The notes under the pieces: generated by a model
The model's database searches: none
What the model was told of the DNA's origin: nothing
What the model saw: the letters and a program-made list of their open reading frames with translations, nothing else
In this document: piece after piece, positions 31 through 7,867 of the stretch
Numbering within the stretch: position 1 is the stretch's first letter
How the letters are laid out: the number at the start of each line of letters is the position of its first letter
Translations under genes and position numbers: made by a program
From: a bacterium
Lineage (GTDB): Bacteria; Armatimonadota; Zipacnadia; Zipacnadales; Zipacnadaceae
DNA: 50,798 nt
Assembly: GCA_030603495.1 (NCBI GenBank)
Contig: JAUVXR010000019.1
Span: forward strand, 1 to 50,798
Direction: 5' to 3'

Positions 31-168
31 TCAACGTTCTAAACTCCTAGTGTCGTCTTCGGTGCCTGCGGACGAGGGGTCTCTTTTCTGGGCCGTCTTG
101 CGACGTATCTCTTCCATAAGGGCATGAGCTCTGTCAAGCGCAACGATGACTACTGCTGGCTCGACAGA
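31..168 (-). other. Coding-like tail beyond the acsB-like stop codon
   Basis: Just past the stop of the acetyl-CoA synthase gene, another minus-strand frame stays open for about 40 codons and ends in TGA at 31-33. It would read VVIVALDRAHALMEEIRRK and then a charged tail. The composition (a hydrophobic strand, then an amphipathic charged helix) looks like real protein rather than random DNA, and no ribosome binding site precedes it. It could be the true C-terminus of the upstream protein, reached through a frameshift, or simply chance. I see no other gene in the first 149 bases. Confidence 0.25.
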
Positions 169-2021
169 AAGTACCTGAGTTCCTCAATGGTCATCGCATC
201 GTCCTCGGTGGCAACTTTCGCGCCTTCCGGCAGATTAGGCACCATGAGTTGGTGGGCTCGTTTAGTAGCCCACTTGACGGCCGCAAGACCACCCTCGCCT
301 GCGAAGGCCTTCGGACTTGTCAAGTAGGACATAGAGATCCCGGTAACCCCAGGGCTCTGCTTACCGCCGGCCTGGTTGGCTAGAATTGACCAGTTGAGGC
401 CGCCTGGCGCAGTGCCTTCGTAACCTCGCTCCATGACACCAATCCAATTGGTTTCTGGTATCTGGAATGCCAGGGCGCCGAAGCACCCGCACGAGCTGTG
501 TGGAGCAATGGCGACAGAGTGGAGCCTCACGCGCTCGAGTGTGCCTCCGGTCAGCTGGGCCACCGCCTCGTTGACACCGGTCCATTCGCCAGCGGCAGCA
601 TCAATGGGCTCACCCTTTTCGATCACGTACTGGAGATCATCATTCGCTTTGTCGCGCCGGGTCCATGGCCGGTAGTCAGTCCCCCAGAGAGCGGCTGCCT
701 TGATCTGCCCGCGGCTCTTGCCGCACATGGGTGGACGGGCCGGTGTGACGATACATACATGGCTGTGACTAAATGGCTGACAGTCAATGCAAGCGTGGAA
801 TTCCCCGACGCTCTCCTCACTTTCCCTCAGGATCGCCTGGTCACGGGTCCGGTTAAACTCAGCAGCCGTGGCCATCTCGCGCCGGACAGCATCTTCGCTG
901 AAGTTCAGGTGGACCTTGATGCTACCAAGCCTGGGAAAGGCGCGCTTCAGCCCAGAACGGATTACCTCTCCAAGGAGACATCCATCCAGCTCAACACCCT
1001 CGGCCAACTCAATGACGAAATCGCCACTGTCGTTCCGCCGTGTCTTGACCCCGCAGAGATACGATCCATAGCTAATGGCCTGTGTCTCAAGGTGCGCCGA
1101 GACGGGCAGATCTAACTTTTGGTCGGCTATCTCCACGATTATCGCAACGTGATCACAGGATTCGTTGCCCGCCATGACAACTCCGGGTTCGCAGTCAGCC
1201 GGTCGAAGCTGAAGAATGCCCTTGATCTGGCGAGCCGGCTCCACCTGCTCGTGGAGGTAAGCAAGGTCCGCACCATCCGGAAGGGTGAACTCCTCTCCGG
1301 CGATGACCCGGACACGCATGTTGGGGAATTGTGCAAGGGCGCGGAGGACCTCGTCCTCGCTCTGAGCCACAGCACGCGGACCTATGTCGTACGGAAACGC
1401 GGAATCCACCACGGCGGGACAGCCCATCTTCATGAGTGCGAGCAGAACCAGTCCCTCGATAGAACCGACCGAGCCCATGACAACGATAGCGCCGGGCATA
1501 TCACGCTCGAGGAAGTGAGCCATTTCATGGTCCTCACCGGGCGCTATCCGGCCCCAGATCATCGCATATCGTACCATCAACTGAAGAAAGTGAACGGCGC
1601 CAGTCTCCCTGGTCGGCAAGGCGTGGTCGCATGTCAGGTCGTGCTGTGAGGAGAAAACCATATACTCGTTGTCCTGGAGCTGCTCAATCAGAGACGCATT
1701 GATCGCGTCGCCAGCGACCAGGACCCAGCCGGCTCGCCACTTGGCACCACTGAAAACGTAGCTTCGGACCTGCTCATCGTCCATATAAAACTCGTTCCGG
1801 TCGCCGGCATTTGATTCGATGATCTCAGCCGCGATGGCGACGGGCTCCAACATATCCTTCAGTTCGCCCCGGGCCGATTCAATCAACCACCCGCGCAGGC
1901 GCTCGATGCAAGGCTCCTCGCCCAGTATTGCCTGCGCGACGGGCATAGGGTACTCGGTCCGCGGAAAGGGCTTGTAAGCGCGCGGCAGAAGCTCCAGAAT
2001 GGTCTCAATATCTGTGTTCAC
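150..2021 (-). CDS. CO-methylating acetyl-CoA synthase subunit, AcsB/CdhC-like (orphan)
   Basis: Acetyl-CoA synthase joins a methyl group from a corrinoid protein, CO and CoA into acetyl-CoA in the Wood-Ljungdahl pathway. The A-cluster ligand pattern is complete: C411-x2-C414-x8-C423-x9-C433 for the Fe4S4 and proximal metal, and the C511-G-C513 motif for the distal nickel, in an HSSCGCF context followed by a conserved IPE. These spacings match the Moorella enzyme. At 623 residues it is shorter than the roughly 730 of bacterial AcsB but much longer than archaeal CdhC, so the N-terminal CODH-binding region seems reduced. The start is GTG, with GGGAG about 8 bases upstream. It is the last gene of the ArsR-led operon, and no CODH, corrinoid protein or methyltransferase gene lies in the window. 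Family assignment is firm; participation in acetyl-CoA synthesis is unproven. Confidence 0.85.
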   Translation of the reverse strand: MNTDIETILELLPRAYKPFPRTEYPMPVAQAILGEEPCIERLRGWLIESARGELKDMLEPVAIAAEIIESNAGDRNEFYMDDEQVRSYVFSGAKWRAGWVLVAGDAINASLIEQLQDNEYMVFSSQHDLTCDHALPTRETGAVHFLQLMVRYAMIWGRIAPGEDHEMAHFLERDMPGAIVVMGSVGSIEGLVLLALMKMGCPAVVDSAFPYDIGPRAVAQSEDEVLRALAQFPNMRVRVIAGEEFTLPDGADLAYLHEQVEPARQIKGILQLRPADCEPGVVMAGNESCDHVAIIVEIADQKLDLPVSAHLETQAISYGSYLCGVKTRRNDSGDFVIELAEGVELDGCLLGEVIRSGLKRAFPRLGSIKVHLNFSEDAVRREMATAAEFNRTRDQAILRESEESVGEFHACIDCQPFSHSHVCIVTPARPPMCGKSRGQIKAAALWGTDYRPWTRRDKANDDLQYVIEKGEPIDAAAGEWTGVNEAVAQLTGGTLERVRLHSVAIAPHSSCGCFGALAFQIPETNWIGVMERGYEGTAPGGLNWSILANQAGGKQSPGVTGISMSYLTSPKAFAGEGGLAAVKWATKRAHQLMVPNLPEGAKVATEDDAMTIEELRYFLSSQQ

Positions 2022-2166: not shown

Positions 2167-2585
2167 TTATCGTCGGCTTCCGGTCAATCTTAGTGGTCGC
2201 TGCGTGGTCAGGCAGACCATAGTCAGCCCGCAAATATATTCGGGATAGCCGCGCAGGAAAACGATCGCCAGCAGAAGCATCAGGATCGGACCGATGAGCC
2301 AGTTCTGCACCAGCGAGAGGGTCAAGACCTTGCTGTTGCGAAAAACGTCCCCCATCTCTTCGTACCGCACCTTCGCCAGGGGGGGTACATCATCAGGATA
2401 AGGCCGATGGCCAACGGCACCGAGGTCGTGCCGATCTGCGAGAGTTTGTTGAGCCTGGTAATCAGGTCAGGAAGTAGGTAACACAGGCCAACCCCCGCGA
2501 TCATTGCCAGGAAAATCCAGCCCGTCAGGTAGCGGTCCAGAAACGAGAGCCTCCGGGCGACTGACTGTGGCATTTCAGCAGTCAC
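2167..2585 (-). pseudogene. acr3: Broken arsenite efflux pump, Acr3 family
   Basis: Two overlapping frames together give the N-terminal third of an Acr3 (BASS-superfamily) arsenite permease: a stretch resembling [16 protein letters not shown], then GLILMMYPP, then in the next frame [20 protein letters not shown] and [20 protein letters not shown]. The frame changes inside a run of seven G at about 2389-2395, where one more base would restore the reading frame. After GYPEY the similarity stops within a few residues and a stop follows, so about two thirds of the usual 350-residue protein is missing. It sits in the ArsR operon, where an arsenite pump is expected. The homopolymer slip could be a sequencing error, but the 3' truncation is not explained by that. 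Confidence 0.7.
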
Positions 2586-2647
2586 TCCTTGGTCTGTGCA
2601 CCAAGGATCAGCATCAGCACCATAGTGCCGACGTATGCTACCGACAT
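2582..2647 (-). CDS. Possible 21-residue hydrophobic peptide
   Basis: An ATG five bases after the CcdA stop codon opens a 21-codon frame containing a hydrophobic stretch ([10 protein letters not shown]) and a polar end (QTKE). Its TGA overlaps the GTG that opens the acr3 relic, a GTGA junction typical of translational coupling. There is no clear Shine-Dalgarno sequence of its own, so it would depend on ribosomes finishing ccdA. It may be a real small membrane peptide, a leader for acr3, or chance. Confidence 0.25.
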
Positions 2648-2652
2648 TCGAC

Positions 2653-3300
2653 TTAAGGAGCGGTATAGATCAGGTATAGACCACCCAGTATTACCAGCAC
2701 GCCGCAGACCTGTTTTATCAGGACAGCGCCCCGCGACTCTTCGCTCCAGTTTAGATAACGCTGCACCAACTCCGTCGAAGTACCCGCAGCCACAATTACT
2801 GTGCAGTGGCCCACACCATAAGTCAACAATAGTAGGATACCGTAGGTGAGCTTAGTCGCCGCGACCTGTATTGTGATGGCGAGGATAGGAGCCATATAAG
2901 CGAAGGTACAGGGCCCCATAGCAATACCGAATACCAAGCCGAGGACCAAAGCAGCCAGTAGGCCCTTGCGCTGGATTGCCCCGGGACTGGCTCCACTGAA
3001 AGAAAGAGGTATCACCCCAAGTAGGTGCAGCCCCACTATCAAGAACACTGCTGCGACCAGATAGTTACCCCATGCGCCGATGTCGCCCATCATGCGCCCA
3101 AGCGAGGCCGTGATGACACCGATGACGGCGATAGTAAGTAGTATTCCGCTGGCAAACAGCGTCGAGAGCCAGAACGCGTGGCGCGTGGAGGTACGCCCGT
3201 GCTTGTCAATGAAGCCCACGATAAGCGGTATGCTGGCCAGATGACAGGGGCTGAGCAGAATGCTGAGGACTCCCCAAGCAAAAGCCGCTCCCAGCGCCAC
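2653..3300 (-). CDS. CcdA/DsbD-type thiol-disulfide membrane electron carrier
   Basis: CcdA proteins pass electrons from cytoplasmic thioredoxin across the membrane to exported thiol-redox proteins. The 215-residue protein has six hydrophobic segments and the two diagnostic cysteines in their usual contexts: C19 in [11 protein letters not shown] and C131 in [12 protein letters not shown]. The start is GTG, with GAGGGG nine bases upstream; the same frame has a stop 60 bases earlier, so it cannot extend far. It follows two exported thioredoxins in the same operon, which are its likely acceptors. Specialisation for cytochrome c maturation, as in classic CcdA, is not supported by any neighbour. 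Confidence 0.85.
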
Positions 3301-3352
3301 CGCTGCAGTCCCCTCAACTGCCTGAGTCAGCGTAGCAAACAGTTCCTGCAGT

Positions 3353-4279
3353 TCATTTCACCCCTATCTCGGCAAGTTTCGTCACTATCTGTTCTTTGGA
3401 GAAGAACCCCTCGTGGCGGAAGACTTCCTGGCCGCCCTTGTCAAAGAAGACCTGAACAGGAATTGGTTCGATGTTGTATCTGGCGGCAAGAATCTGCTGC
3501 TCACGCACTGACACAAACAGTATGTTGCAGCGGTCGGCGTACTCCTGGCGTAGTTCCGCCAGGATCGGCGTCATCATGTCACACGGGCCACAGCCTTGTG
3601 CCCCGAAATCCACAAGGGTAGGCATCCCTGACCGTCGTGCCTTACCCACAGGATTGTCCAAGGCGGCGGGCGCGTGTGTCTTTACCCATTGTGCGGCCAG
3701 CTCGACCGGATGCCGCTTGCTCAGCGTGTTGATATGAGCCGCCACGGCCTCGTCTCGTTTCTGGCCGAGCACGTACGGCCTGATCATTGGGGCCACCTGC
3801 TCGAAGCTCGCGCCTCCAAACATATCCTTGTTGTCCTCAAAGAAGACTTGAATCTCTTCGTCGGAAACGCCTACCTTTCCAGCAATGCTCTGCAGGTACG
3901 CTTCGATTAGACTGGGTGACGTTTCTTCAGTGGTACTGATTTGCTGGGTTCGTGCCCATTCCTGCGTCTCATCCAGGAGCAGTGCTCGAACTGTCACCTG
4001 TTCTAACACGAAGAATCGATTCTTGTCCAACTGCGGGCGGACTTGCTCAGCGGCGCGGGTAATTTGGCCTGTCACTTGCGCCTCTGTAACCGTTATCAAG
4101 CTGGCGCGAAGCAGCGTGCCAGCAGGCAGGTCCACCAGCTTGGCTTGACGAAGTGGTCCGCTGCTCAGTCCCAGATAGCTTCGCTCCAAGGTGGGTGGGC
4201 TTTCCTCCTCCGCTGCAGGTACGCCCGGGGCGGATACTACCAGGACAACCAACCATGCTGCACAGAGCTTCCATCGCAT
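3353..4279 (-). CDS. Exported thioredoxin with SurA-like N-terminal region
   Basis: The 308-residue product starts with a signal peptide (hydrophobic core about 6-20, Ala-rich cleavage region near 22). Residues about 50-200 are helical and resemble the SurA/parvulin N-terminal chaperone region (EYxE-type helices, VSDEEIQVFFEDN). A thioredoxin domain follows, with active site C230-G-P-C233 and a cis-Pro in EPIPVQ. I chose ATG at 4279 because GGAGG lies 7 bases upstream and this start clears the stop codon of the preceding thioredoxin gene; a start 30 bases earlier would overlap it. Likely role: reduction or isomerisation of thiols outside the cytoplasm, recharged by the adjacent CcdA protein. 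The chaperone-like part could bind client proteins. The domain pairing is unusual. Confidence 0.75.
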   Translation of the reverse strand: MRWKLCAAWLVVLVVSAPGVPAAEEESPPTLERSYLGLSSGPLRQAKLVDLPAGTLLRASLITVTEAQVTGQITRAAEQVRPQLDKNRFFVLEQVTVRALLLDETQEWARTQQISTTEETSPSLIEAYLQSIAGKVGVSDEEIQVFFEDNKDMFGGASFEQVAPMIRPYVLGQKRDEAVAAHINTLSKRHPVELAAQWVKTHAPAALDNPVGKARRSGMPTLVDFGAQGCGPCDMMTPILAELRQEYADRCNILFVSVREQQILAARYNIEPIPVQVFFDKGGQEVFRHEGFFSKEQIVTKLAEIGVK

Positions 4280-4295
4280 TTCGAACCTCCAAGAG

Positions 4296-4874
4296 CTATT
4301 CAAGATCAATCCCCAGTTCCTTGAACTTAGCGAGTATTTCGTCTTTTGGATAGAAGCCGATGTGCCGGAAGACTTCCTTACCGCTGCTGTCGTAGATTAC
4401 CTGCGTCGGTATGGTTTGTATGCCATACTTGCCTGACTGCTCGGGATGCTTCCACACGTCAACAAAGTCAACCTGTAGCTTGTCGGCATACTCGCCCCGA
4501 AGCTCGTCCAGAATCGGCTGCATCATCTTGCAGGGAATGCACTTGTCTGCGCCGATCTCCACAAATCGGGGCAGATGCGTGGGCTTCGATTCCTCCGAGG
4601 GAGCTGCTTCTTGCACTGTCTCAAGCCTGGCGGAATGCTCAGGTTTCCCCATCGCTGGAGTAGCACCGGTCTGAGACTGAGACGTGGGCGGGGACTGTGC
4701 ACCCGGCTTGTCCGGCTGCGCTACTGGTTCTGTGGGGGGCTGTTCCGCCAAAGTCGGCTCAGACGGTGTAGGAGCCGGCGTCGTTGGTAGCGGCTTGTTG
4801 GTCTTGGCCGCGATCACCACTAGTATCGCAAAGACCACGAGCGCTGCTATCAGCGCCCTCTTCTGTTGTGACAT
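4296..4874 (-). CDS. Membrane-anchored thioredoxin-like protein
   Basis: The 192-residue protein has an N-terminal membrane anchor (residues about 7-23), a Pro/Thr/Gln-rich linker to about residue 100, and a thioredoxin fold with the non-standard active site C112-I-P-C115 in a KCIPCKMM context. A TIPTQ segment supplies the cis-Pro. The domain should face outside the cytoplasm. ATG at 4874 is preceded by GAGG at 8 bases; another ATG lies one codon upstream. It is 16 bases ahead of the SurA-thioredoxin gene and is probably cotranscribed with it and ccdA. The two exported thioredoxins are similar near their C-termini (EVFRHxGF, KExI), suggesting duplication of the domain. Confidence 0.8.
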   Translation of the reverse strand: MSQQKRALIAALVVFAILVVIAAKTNKPLPTTPAPTPSEPTLAEQPPTEPVAQPDKPGAQSPPTSQSQTGATPAMGKPEHSARLETVQEAAPSEESKPTHLPRFVEIGADKCIPCKMMQPILDELRGEYADKLQVDFVDVWKHPEQSGKYGIQTIPTQVIYDSSGKEVFRHIGFYPKDEILAKFKELGIDLE

Positions 4875-4884
4875 CATTATCACC

Positions 4885-4938
4885 TCATCCGTTCACAGTT
4901 TCACACTTAGCGAACCGCGCAGCAGCCTTGGTCTTCAT
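4885..4938 (-). CDS. Possible 17-residue peptide overlapping the DGC gene end
   Basis: The frame encodes MKTKAAARFAKCETVNG. Its ATG overlaps the stop of the DGC gene (ATGA), it has AAGGAG seven bases upstream, and its stop is followed directly by the ribosome binding site of the next gene. The translation signals are good for such a short frame. It contains one cysteine and a basic N-terminus. It could be a real microprotein or a coupling device that carries ribosomes from the DGC gene to the thioredoxin gene. I do not recognise a family. Confidence 0.35.
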   Translation of the reverse strand: MKTKAAARFAKCETVNG

Positions 4939-5318
4939 GCACAGGTCTCCTTTGAAAGCAGCTCTCTTCCCCTGGTCACGACCTTCTCGACTGCCTCGTC
5001 CGTGACCGGCGATTCGCCCTTCTCGAACCCCAGGTCGGTCAGCCGCAGGTGCTCGAACGCCGTAATGCCAGCCTGCTCGAGGCAGTTCCTCACGCAATCC
5101 AGGGCGCAGCCGTCGATGGCGAGGATCGTGGCAGCGGACTCCGTGGTCTTCATAATGCTGCTCACCCGGCCGCCCACGCCGGCGAGGCAGAACATCTTGC
5201 CCGCACCCTCCCTCGCGAGCTTCCGCGCCGCCTGGTCGGACATGGCTCCTACGTCCGCGGCTCCAGAGCAGGCGAAGATCAGCTTGGGGGCCGCACTGCA
5301 TGCGCATTCGTTCGACAT
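4935..5318 (-). CDS. DGC-domain putative zinc-binding protein
   Basis: The 127-residue protein matches the DGC family (named for its Asp-Gly-Cys motif, seen here in AIDGCALDC). Other family features are LIFACSGAADVGAMSDQAAR near the N-terminus and MFCLAGVGGRVSSIMKT in the middle. The many conserved cysteines suggest metal binding; the biochemical role is not established. ATG has AGGAGG seven bases upstream. In anaerobes these genes often sit beside mini-thioredoxins and COG0701 permeases, exactly as here, which points to a role in metal or metalloid handling. Confidence 0.8.
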   Translation of the reverse strand: MSNECACSAAPKLIFACSGAADVGAMSDQAARKLAREGAGKMFCLAGVGGRVSSIMKTTESAATILAIDGCALDCVRNCLEQAGITAFEHLRLTDLGFEKGESPVTDEAVEKVVTRGRELLSKETCA

Positions 5319-5333
5319 GGCTCTTCCTCCTAA

Positions 5334-5564
5334 TCAGCTAAGAAGCTTCTTGATATCGTCGGCCGGCAACGCCTTCCCCGCCGACTTCACATCACCGTCC
5401 ACGACGAGCGCGGGCGTCATCATGACGCCCGCCTTCATGATCTCATTGATGTCGGTGACCTTCTCGATCTCGTACTCGATGCCGAGAGCCTGGGCCGCTG
5501 CCTCGGCGTTCTCGGCCAGTTTCTTGCACTTGGGACACCCCGTACCCAGGATTTGTATCTTCAT
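5334..5564 (-). CDS. Mini-thioredoxin (redox-active disulfide protein 2 family)
   Basis: A 76-residue cytoplasmic protein of the TM0996/MTH895 mini-thioredoxin family, with active site C10-P-K-C13 right after the first strand (KIQILGTGCPKC) and a cis-Pro in MMTPALVVDG. Length is normal for the family. GGGAGG lies eight bases before the ATG. It is 15 bases upstream of the DGC gene and 19 bases after the permease gene, so the three form a tight cluster. It could serve as the electron donor to the permease partners or to the CcdA protein. Confidence 0.88.
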   Translation of the reverse strand: MKIQILGTGCPKCKKLAENAEAAAQALGIEYEIEKVTDINEIMKAGVMMTPALVVDGDVKSAGKALPADDIKKLLS

Positions 5565-5583
5565 CGAAATCGCCTCCCTTGAA

Positions 5584-6759
5584 TCAGGCTAACGCTCCAT
5601 AGATCATTCCAGTTATAGTCGCCATGATCGCGACGAGGGCGACGAACACCGTTGTCTTCTTGGCACCGATGACGCTAGCGATGACCAACATGTTCGGCAG
5701 CGAAAGCGCCGGCCCAGCCAGTAGCAATGCTAGCGCCGGTCCTTTGCCCATGCCACTACCCAGTAGGCTCTGGAGAATCGGCACCTCAGTGAGGGTGGCG
5801 AAGTACATAAAGGCGCCCAGAATTGACGCGAAGAGATTAGCGCCCAGCGAGTTGCCACCGACAAGCCTGGCTATGAAGGTATTGGGAATGATTCCATGAT
5901 CCGTGCCCGGCATTCCCAGCAGGAACCCGGCCACCAGCACCCCAGCGAATAGCAGCGGCATTATTTGTAGCGTGAAACCCCAGGTCGAGTCTAGCCAATC
6001 TTGCATTTCATCACGGTTGAACCACCGCCGCAACATCACTGCCAGCACGACCAGTAACGGCACAACAATGTACCAGTGTATCCTGTAAACCTCCCACCAC
6101 AACCCAGATTCTTCTGCGGGTCTTGCCCAGGCGGCGAAGATGAGAATCAGGACCATCACTCCAACAAACGACGCCGTCTGGAACAGGGGCCGCTCTTCGT
6201 CCTCGGCTAAGCCCGTGAAGGCCGCCTCGGTCTCGGCGGCTCGCTCGACTTCCTCTTTGCGGAAGATGAGAGCCATGAGCAGGCCAATCACGATCGCAAA
6301 GACCACCGCCCCCACCGCCCGCGCCAGGCCCATCTGCCAGCCCAGGACCCGAGCGGTGAGGATTATAGCCAGGATATTGATAGCGGGGCCCGAATACAGA
6401 AAGGCACAGGCTGGTCCTAAGCCGGCCCCCCGGGTGTAAATCCCGGCAAACAGTGGCAGCACCGTGCAGGAGCACACTGCCAGGATGGTGCCAGACACTG
6501 AGGCCACACTGTAGGCCAGCATCTTGTTCGCCTTGGGCCCGAAGTATTTCATCACCGATGCCCGGCTGATGAACACTGCAATGGCCCCAGCAATGAAAAA
6601 AGCGGGTACCAGACAGAAAAGGACGTGTTTCTGCGCGTAGTCTTGCAGCATAACGAGCATGTCCGCCAGGGCAGACTGCACGCGGGGATGCTGCAGCGGT
6701 ATGAAATACGCGGCCAGAAACACTGCTACTATGATCAAGAACTTCGTGCGTTCGGACAT
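5584..6759 (-). CDS. COG0701 permease (DUF318, ArsP-like)
   Basis: A 391-residue integral membrane protein with about nine to ten hydrophobic segments. The family signature CSCTVLPLFAGIYTRGAG and the following GPACAFLYSGPAINILA are clear, and a second half repeats the topology (ALALLLAGPALSLPNMLVI). Members include ArsP-type exporters of organoarsenicals, and many are found beside arsR. ATG at 6759 is preferred over an earlier start because GAGG lies 8 bases before it and the 33 extra residues would be hydrophilic and unlike the family. It lies 67 bases downstream of the ArsR gene. The substrate is not visible from sequence; export of a metalloid or thiol conjugate is inference. Confidence 0.85.
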   Translation of the reverse strand: MSERTKFLIIVAVFLAAYFIPLQHPRVQSALADMLVMLQDYAQKHVLFCLVPAFFIAGAIAVFISRASVMKYFGPKANKMLAYSVASVSGTILAVCSCTVLPLFAGIYTRGAGLGPACAFLYSGPAINILAIILTARVLGWQMGLARAVGAVVFAIVIGLLMALIFRKEEVERAAETEAAFTGLAEDEERPLFQTASFVGVMVLILIFAAWARPAEESGLWWEVYRIHWYIVVPLLVVLAVMLRRWFNRDEMQDWLDSTWGFTLQIMPLLFAGVLVAGFLLGMPGTDHGIIPNTFIARLVGGNSLGANLFASILGAFMYFATLTEVPILQSLLGSGMGKGPALALLLAGPALSLPNMLVIASVIGAKKTTVFVALVAIMATITGMIYGALA

Positions 6760-6826
6760 ATCAAGTCCTCTTAGAGCTTGCAGGAAATCGCCTACGCTGG
6801 TACAGGTGTGCGTGCCATGTGAGAAG

Positions 6827-7117
6827 TCAGGCCCGCTCTGTGCCCAGCGCTTCGTCAATACATGGGAATACGTTCATAACGCAGGGCACCAGCAGGCGGT
6901 AGTAGATCTTGTTACCCTCCCGCCGAGCGGCAATAATACCTGCGCTTTTCATCTGTGCCAGATGCCGGGAGACTGTTGGCATTGCCGAGCCGACCAACTG
7001 CTGCAAGTCACAGACACACTTTTCGCCTCCAGCAAGTGCGTCAACGATGATCAGCCTGGTCGGATGTGCCATCGCTTTGAGCACTTCCGCCCGCAGTTCA
7101 TACACTGTAGTGTCCAT
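6827..7117 (-). CDS. ArsR-family metalloid-sensing repressor
   Basis: A 96-residue winged-helix protein. The recognition region is PTVSRHLAQMKSAGI, followed by the wing (ARREGNKIYYRL). A C34-V-C36 motif precedes it in the same place as the arsenite-binding ELCVCDL motif of ArsR. Extra cysteines C79 and C86 lie in the C-terminal helix. The ATG at 7117 has GAGG six bases upstream; a TTG eight codons earlier is possible. It heads the minus-strand operon and its operator overlaps its own promoter. As(III) or Sb(III) is the most likely signal from the CVC motif. Confidence 0.88.
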   Translation of the reverse strand: MDTTVYELRAEVLKAMAHPTRLIIVDALAGGEKCVCDLQQLVGSAMPTVSRHLAQMKSAGIIAARREGNKIYYRLLVPCVMNVFPCIDEALGTERA

Positions 7118-7159
7118 GTTGTCCTCACTCGCTTCTGCCAATTAGCCCGTGCTCCTATT

Positions 7160-7303: not shown

Positions 7304-7867
7304 ATGCACCGACGTGAATTCCTGGCTACAATTGCCGGCGGTGAGAGGCAAGGGGGTGAGCGCTCCATCTTCGTCATCCAGAAGCACGCTGCCCGCACGC
7401 TGCACTACGACTTCCGCCTGGAGGTGGACGGGGTGCTCAAGTCGTGGGCGGTGCCCAAGGGGCCCTCGACCGACCCCCGGGTGAAGCGTCTCGCTGTGCC
7501 CACGGAGGACCATCCGCTGGAGTACGCCCAGTTTGAGGGGGCAATCCCCGGAGGGCAGTATGGCGCGGGGACGGTGCTGGTCTGGGACACCGGCACGTAC
7601 CGCAACCTCAAGGAAGAAGATCCTGACTACGAGCCGATGTCAATGGCTGACGCGTTGGCCAGCGGCCTCGTGGCGGTGTGGCTGGAGGGTCACAAGCTGC
7701 GTGGGGGCTACGCACTGGTCCGCACGGGTAGGGGAGAGGATAACCGCTGGCTGCTCATCAAGATGAAAGATGAGGGCGCCGATGCCCGCCGCAATCCCGT
7801 CAGCACGCAGCCGGAGTCAGTCCTTACCGGGCAGACGACCGAGGAGATAGCGGCGGAGCCGAGCTAG
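7304..7867 (+). CDS. Stand-alone LigD-type 3'-phosphoesterase
   Basis: The 187-residue protein is the phosphoesterase domain found at the N-terminus of the end-joining ligase LigD, here without ligase or polymerase. It trims 3'-phosphate and 3'-ribonucleotide ends. Residues matching the known active site are present: H28, H34, D36, R38 (in QKHAARTLHYDFRLE), H70 and Y74 (EDHPLEYAQFEG), plus the IPGGQYGAGTV and W-(8)-L segments. The ATG follows GAGGGCAAGCG. No Ku gene is in the window. It may act as an independent end-cleaning enzyme, as reported for stand-alone homologues in archaea and bacteria. Confidence 0.9.
   Translation: MHRREFLATIAGGERQGGERSIFVIQKHAARTLHYDFRLEVDGVLKSWAVPKGPSTDPRVKRLAVPTEDHPLEYAQFEGAIPGGQYGAGTVLVWDTGTYRNLKEEDPDYEPMSMADALASGLVAVWLEGHKLRGGYALVRTGRGEDNRWLLIKMKDEGADARRNPVSTQPESVLTGQTTEEIAAEPS

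Follow-up and report, generated by a model that had tools for sequence, protein, structure and literature searches.

An acetyl-CoA synthase-family gene at the end of an ars operon

We analyzed a 50,798-nucleotide stretch of DNA (the window hereafter) from a bacterium of the Zipacnadaceae (Armatimonadota; assembly GCA_030603495.1, contig JAUVXR010000019.1) and found near its start a minus-strand gene for a divergent protein of the acetyl-CoA synthase (ACS) family (Table 1). We refer to it as AcsB2, a label coined in this analysis for a third, well-supported ACS clade. A Shine-Dalgarno-like GGGAG lies upstream of the start codon. The first base of the window is also the first base of its contig (C15), so that the sequence 3' of the gene is cut off about 150 bp downstream. 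The protein matched TIGR00316 with 214 bits (E 2.6e-63), a score far beyond chance, the family cut-off being 356, and it matched Pfam PF19436 with an E-value of 1.6e-40. Its NCBIfam scores were likewise below the respective cut-offs (NF007078, 215.8 bits, cut-off 809; NF040764, 205.5 bits, cut-off 800). An earlier sequence-only reading of this DNA had described a shortened N-terminus. In agreement with this, Pfam did not detect PF18537 or PF03598 in the window protein, whereas it found both, together with PF19436, in the canonical AcsB that this genome also encodes. Among the AcsB2 members searched with Pfam, PF19436 was found in 10/10, and PF03598 and PF18537 were each found in 0/10.

The sequence-only reading had also placed the gene behind a minus-strand run of ArsR, permease, thioredoxin and CcdA genes. 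We confirmed this run at 2653-7141 and found, in addition, a broken acr3 gene between it and the ACS gene. The acr3 remnant has a frameshift near residue 96, the sequence past residue 154 is missing, and it ends 184 bp before acsB2, which sits in the acr3 slot. On the opposite strand, the window encodes a stand-alone LigD 3'-phosphoesterase domain (PF13298) at 7304-7867(+).

Table 1. Positions of the genes and motifs discussed (in the window unless a locus is named)
Feature	Position	Strand	Remark
AcsB2, divergent three-domain acetyl-CoA-synthase-family protein, 623 aa	150..2021	(-)	GTG start
C511-G512-C513, distal-nickel site of the A-cluster	483..491	(-)	alignment
[4Fe-4S] ligands C411, C414, C423, C433 and Phe417 (Moorella Phe512)	723..791	(-)	alignment
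H165-E166-x2-H169	1515..1529	(-)	H165 and H169 unchanged in all ten cluster-complete members
Second tunnel helix Q147...M149...Y152...W156	1554..1583	(-)	residue roles from PMC11321310, PMC11474084
Gating-helix region R86...V89-F90-S91-G92-A93-K94-W95...W99	1725..1766	(-)	alignment
Broken acr3 (arsenite efflux)	2206..2600	(-)	corresponds to residues 23-154 out of 391 in a relative
CcdA/DsbD-type membrane protein, ars operon	2653..3300	(-)	
Protein with C-terminal thioredoxin domain, ars operon	3353..4309	(-)	
Membrane-anchored thioredoxin, ars operon	4296..4883	(-)	
DGC-domain protein (PF08859)	4935..5318	(-)	Pfam
Small MTH895/ArsE-family thioredoxin-like protein	5334..5564	(-)	
ArsP-type permease (PF03773)	5584..6858	(-)	
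ArsR/SmtB-family regulator	6827..7141	(-)	
TauE/SafE transporter gene	L039:8259-9041		upstream of AcsB2; DUF364 gene between
TauE/SafE transporter gene	L040:9204-9876		directly upstream of AcsB2
AcsB2 with CGA instead of CGC	L158:1973-4057	(-)	phylum of G291
AcsB2 with CGA instead of CGC	L159:2-1429	(+)	phylum of G291

The gene shares the strand of a genuine ars operon and lies at its end, which would fit a recruitment of AcsB2 to arsenic or organometal handling, and transfer to a metalloid had indeed been proposed. We compared the operon with that of relatives from the same family and order. In the three whose contigs extend far enough (L184, L185 and L187), an intact acr3 comes after ccdA, and in 2/3 an ArsM-like methyltransferase separates the two; ArsM and ACR3 of these relatives were judged from sequence, and the ACR3 of L185 was only partly called. 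None of the three genomes carried AcsB2, and none of the other AcsB2 loci had ars genes. The arsenic link looks accidental because acr3 is broken, the ACS gene lies in its slot and no other member is found in such an operon. Recruitment to arsenic chemistry is thus very improbable, and it is simplest to assume that acsB2 ended up in a decaying ars operon, which would be the landing place of the window copy and not a pointer to its substrate.

A complete A-cluster ligand set in a predicted three-domain ACS fold

The window protein carries all six cysteines of the A-cluster at the standard spacing, as the sequence-only reading had stated. Each ligand of C411-x2-C414-x8-C423-x9-C433 and C511-G-C513 aligned with those of solved ACS chains, and the best sequence match among solved structures was of the CdhC type. 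An AlphaFold2 model of the protein (mean pLDDT 90.9, pTM 0.80) matched ACS 1oao_C with a Z score of 35.7 over 602 residues and the archaeal chain 9c0t_E with 35.9 over 361 residues. The full three-domain ACS fold is thus predicted for AcsB2, with the N-terminal and middle domains persisting as folds in the model despite the silence of Pfam. Neither the model nor Pfam revealed a DNA-binding or signaling domain. The six-cysteine ligand set was complete in 10/12 members, including the window protein, which would therefore be expected to assemble a Ni-Ni-[4Fe-4S] A-cluster. The remaining two lacked the last cysteine ligand (CGC to CGA). Both of these (L158 and L159) carried Thr in place of Phe512, and in each case the gene directly downstream was NADPH-FMN-reductase-like.

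Apart from the ligands, we noted an HExxH-like motif with H165 and H169. Canonical ACS showed no such motif at the equivalent position, and a second metal site is possible. Lys94, like the two histidines, was invariant in the ten members with the full ligand set. The only CGA member with an N-domain had Arg, Arg and Ala in place of H165, H169 and Lys94, and Thr at the F515 position. This joint loss, seen in a single lineage, hints that these residues serve the same site.

AcsB2 forms a rare clade under purifying selection

A first contig scan with a single sequence as query found no relative. Searching 291 Armatimonadota genomes identified three further full-length relatives with 59% and 38% identity, and a collection scan added relatives with 37-44% identity labeled Planctomycetota, Nitrospirae, Sumerlaeota, Dehalococcoidales, Bacillota and Chloroflexi. 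The family comprised 12 members in several bacterial phyla, with scattered gene neighborhoods. With a profile, and counting the seed genome each time, we found AcsB2 in 1/400 sampled genomes of the phylum of G294 (a Dehalococcoidales genome), in 1/395 genomes of the phylum of G292, where 178/395 had some ACS, and in 3/392 genomes, plus one fragment, of the phylum of G291. AcsB2 is a rare family. In seven genomes from the phylum of G294 (L127-L133) we also observed short ACS frames of about 410 aa without an N-domain, which formed a clade of their own beside an Acetothermia sequence.

We built a tree from the A-cluster half of 84 proteins, including 38 bacterial AcsB, 27 CdhC-type and 7 short Chloroflexota sequences. 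AcsB2 was split off as a group by a branch supported at 100/100, outside the AcsB, CdhC-type and short Chloroflexota rows, and bacterial AcsB likewise formed one clade (100/100). The comparison with AcsB and CdhC that the sequence-only reading had suggested as a check thus yielded a third clade outside both. Its placement near the root is uncertain because the stem and several tip branches are long. Branching within AcsB2 did not follow phyla. The window protein and a Zipacnadia sister from another assembly (100/98) joined the Dehalococcoidales protein, and the AcsB2 of Hebobacteria, which are also Armatimonadota, branched apart from this pair. Either horizontal transfer or an old paralogy followed by loss would account for this pattern. 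DNA flanks shared among members yielded only matches of chance length, and viral contigs contained no AcsB2 relative. Carriage by mobile or viral elements was rejected, as the sole matches in plasmid and phage collections were weak, partial and of the ordinary ACS kind. The ACS-like sequences in L189 (NZ_CP154629.1, 2.6 Mb long and filed as a plasmid) and H2 (MT836275.1, filed as a bacteriophage) look like mislabeled bacterial DNA.

The dN/dS values of four AcsB2 pairs were 0.24, 0.20, 0.12 and 0.15, with dS saturated in the most distant pair, indicating that the genes are under purifying selection. The CGA lineage, which has lost a distal-nickel ligand, still had a dN/dS of 0.20. These values bear on whether the window gene could be a decaying pseudogene or an assembly artifact, as its place near a contig edge and beside a broken gene might suggest. 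In a related Planctomycetota contig (L045, 5118 bp), whose neighborhood is near-identical to that of L037, AcsB2 is internally deleted and out of frame, which shows loss of the gene under way in one lineage. The window gene, however, has an open frame with the full ligand set, member pairs are under constraint, and a sister gene is present in an independently assembled Zipacnadia genome, which make a pseudogene or artifact the least probable of the readings considered here. The sister gene also makes a contaminating contig join unlikely; the GC content of the gene (0.59, against 0.605 in the remaining window) is noted alongside.

Canonical CODH/ACS genes lie elsewhere in the AcsB2 genomes

The sequence-only reading had called the gene an orphan, and had named in advance a second, normal acsB in a complete cluster as the finding that would speak against this. 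The genome (2.67 Mb, 93.5% complete) has exactly such a cluster on contig C39, which refutes an orphan in the sense of a genome without CODH/ACS. The order of this cluster (L035), read from translations, is a MetV-like protein, CooS/AcsA, a ferredoxin-like protein, AcsB of 734 aa, AcsC, AcsV, AcsD, AcsE and two CooC-type proteins; family searches bore out the assignment of the AcsB, CODH and CdhD-type proteins. Canonical AcsB was present in 8/10 AcsB2 genomes, CODH was clear in 6/10, and proteins of the corrinoid protein (CFeSP) type were found in 8/10. With canonical AcsB and CFeSP in eight genomes each, an auxiliary role of AcsB2 inside the Wood-Ljungdahl pathway is possible. Searches for CODH, canonical ACS and CFeSP turned up nothing in G257 (88% complete) and G293. 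These two absences are weak evidence, since such genes usually cluster and one missing contig could explain each.

AcsB2 and canonical CODH/ACS genes never shared a contig in the gene lists of these genomes, and no CODH or corrinoid-protein gene was found beside AcsB2 at any member locus, the window contig ending about 150 bp past the gene. Regulators adjoining AcsB2 were not conserved among the loci. Two candidate partners were rejected. TauE was the only clear match of its kind in each of the two unrelated genomes carrying L039 and L040, but by our own estimate the coincidence was not significant given the many possible families. The same held for URO-D methyltransferase-like genes, a family common in Planctomycetota, which lay beside two Planctomycetota AcsB2 loci.

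Residues of the gas tunnel, CO alcove and middle domain are altered

We compared 42 canonical with 11 AcsB2 N-domains, using Carboxydothermus numbering (minus 3 gives Moorella numbering). The CO alcove of Moorella ACS consists of G145, I146, V149, F229 and F512 (PMC11321310), and a gating helix with a Met plug has been described in Carboxydothermus (PMC12289521). The canonical gating-helix pattern G-I-x-(M/L/F)-V-D was found to be V-F-x-G-(A/S)-K in AcsB2. Here G148 was replaced by V in 11/11 N-domains, I149 (Moorella Ile146) by F in 9/11, the M/L/F of plug position 151 by G in 11/11 and D153 by K in 10/11, while V152 was lost in 11/11 and is now A, S, I or T. In the second tunnel helix, A225 (Moorella A222), an Ala in 41/42 canonical sequences, had become Met or Leu and A228 had become Tyr in 11/11, and F232 (Moorella F229) was Trp in seven and Tyr in four. 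The window protein has M149, Y152 and W156 at Moorella A222, A225 and F229. F515 (Moorella F512) was kept in the ten cluster-complete members, and Arg145 (Moorella Arg142) was either retained or replaced by Gln. The replaced positions line the alcove and the gate in canonical ACS (PMC11321310, PMC11474084, PMC12289521). Because several replacements are bulkier than the canonical residue, the comparison suggests that the gas route from CODH would be blocked in AcsB2. We set position 268 (Moorella A265) aside as a tunnel marker since it varies within canonical ACS.

A Trp at the Moorella F229 position does not by itself imply loss of CO chemistry, because the Moorella F229W variant still binds CO. 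Binding in that variant was tighter, with the Kd falling about 80-fold from 12.8 to 0.16 uM, and the Ni-CO species was normal (PMC11321310). If anything, by analogy the Trp would point to tight CO binding in AcsB2. This raises the idea that AcsB2 could be a non-catalytic sensor or sink for CO or nickel, with the A-cluster as a high-affinity ligand site. The Trp or Tyr found at this position in 11/11 N-domains, the Kd of about 0.16 uM in Moorella F229W (PMC11321310) and the purifying selection on a CGA subgroup without the nickel ligand would agree with such a role. Against it, AcsB2 lacks a DNA-binding or signaling domain, the adjoining regulators are not conserved, and the invariant His165, His169 and Lys94 of the cluster-complete members fit catalysis at least equally well. 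We regard a sensor or sink as improbable.

The middle domain of AcsB2 has lost E332, G333, R337, R408, H411, H422, R426, W430 and R432, residues that show little or no variation among AcsB and CdhC proteins; the A-cluster domain retains 27 such positions. In canonical complexes the middle domain touches CoA and CFeSP (PMC12289521), so its missing signature speaks for a change of acceptor or partner. We had also considered Trp418, which we took to be a marker of CoA binding, and dropped it because it was not conserved in the canonical set.

Proposed function of AcsB2

AcsB2 could still be an acetyl-CoA synthase/decarbonylase, an isozyme beside the normal complex that takes its methyl group from the canonical corrinoid protein, uses free CO and binds CoA in a changed way. 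Retention of the A-cluster ligands and the Phe512 equivalent in ten members, the co-occurrence of canonical ACS and CFeSP in 8/10 genomes, the normal Ni-CO species and about 80-fold tighter CO binding of Moorella F229W (PMC11321310) and the existence of a stand-alone, monomeric ACS in Carboxydothermus (1ru3) all agree with this. It is harder to reconcile with the lost middle-domain signature, where canonical complexes contact CoA and CFeSP (PMC12289521), and with G257 and G293, where the searches for CODH, canonical ACS and CFeSP were negative. An isozyme is thus rather unlikely, although it is the strongest of the rival readings.

We lean instead towards an A-cluster enzyme that is uncoupled from CODH and whose substrates have probably changed. 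As a whole this reading, in which the window AcsB2 is a third-clade paralogue of the canonical AcsB encoded in its genome and works alone on a changed acceptor, is on balance probable. With its tunnel altered, ligands would reach the proximal nickel from solvent upon domain opening and not from CODH, and the enzyme would probably transfer one carbon (methyl and/or CO) at nickel to an acceptor other than canonically bound CoA. The deep separate clade, the altered tunnel and alcove, the lost middle-domain signature and the two genomes without partners are in line with part of the original recruitment claim, namely an A-cluster protein apart from CODH with perhaps other chemistry; the metalloid part was given up.

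ACS is among the oldest carbon-fixing enzymes, and to our knowledge only a single reaction has been described for its A-cluster. We tentatively propose, as a claim that falls somewhat short of even likelihood, that AcsB2 is the first A-cluster enzyme with a reaction other than acetyl-CoA synthesis or cleavage, the nickel site being reused, without CODH or canonical CoA binding, for another one-carbon transfer. With its ligands kept, and its CO route and CoA/CFeSP-facing domain changed, AcsB2 would show the reuse of an ancient organometallic site. It also offers natural multi-site variants of residues under study, with Trp at Moorella Phe229 and Met or Leu at Ala222; at the latter position A225L (Carboxydothermus numbering) is a designed variant in the PDB. 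AcsB2 genes may moreover be counted as Wood-Ljungdahl genes in metagenomes, though they perhaps lie outside the pathway.

Comparison with known systems

Our search of the open-access literature found no name or description of the AcsB2 clade; subscription papers, including the main CODH/ACS phylogenomic study, were outside its scope. A CODH-less use of canonical ACS in Dehalococcoides mccartyi provides a precedent for the ACS reaction without CODH. The incomplete Wood-Ljungdahl pathway of that organism is cited in PMC7000372. The D. mccartyi ACS is of the ordinary type, whereas AcsB2 is a divergent extra copy.

Bacterial AcsB (CODH/ACS alpha; 1oao, 1mjg, 7zkj; NF007078, NF040764) has in common with AcsB2 the three-domain fold, predicted in the latter, the six cysteines, the Arg142-type residue (Arg or Gln) and the Phe512 equivalent. 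In contrast to it, AcsB2 is about 110 residues shorter with PF18537 and PF03598 undetected, has changed tunnel and alcove residues, falls in a separate clade and has no CODH or CFeSP genes beside it. The monomeric ACS of Carboxydothermus hydrogenoformans (1ru3, 7nyp) resembles AcsB2 in its closed-type fold match and can exist without CODH, but its sequence is canonical and its alcove, tunnel and middle domain are intact. Archaeal CdhC (ACDS beta; 9c0s, 9c0t; TIGR00316) shares with AcsB2 the A-cluster domain with PH(S/T)SCGC, although AcsB2 scored 214 bits against the cut-off of 356 and lay outside the CdhC rows in the tree. CdhC has no N-terminal domain (PMC11474084) and keeps the middle-domain signature intact, while AcsB2 shows the opposite arrangement.
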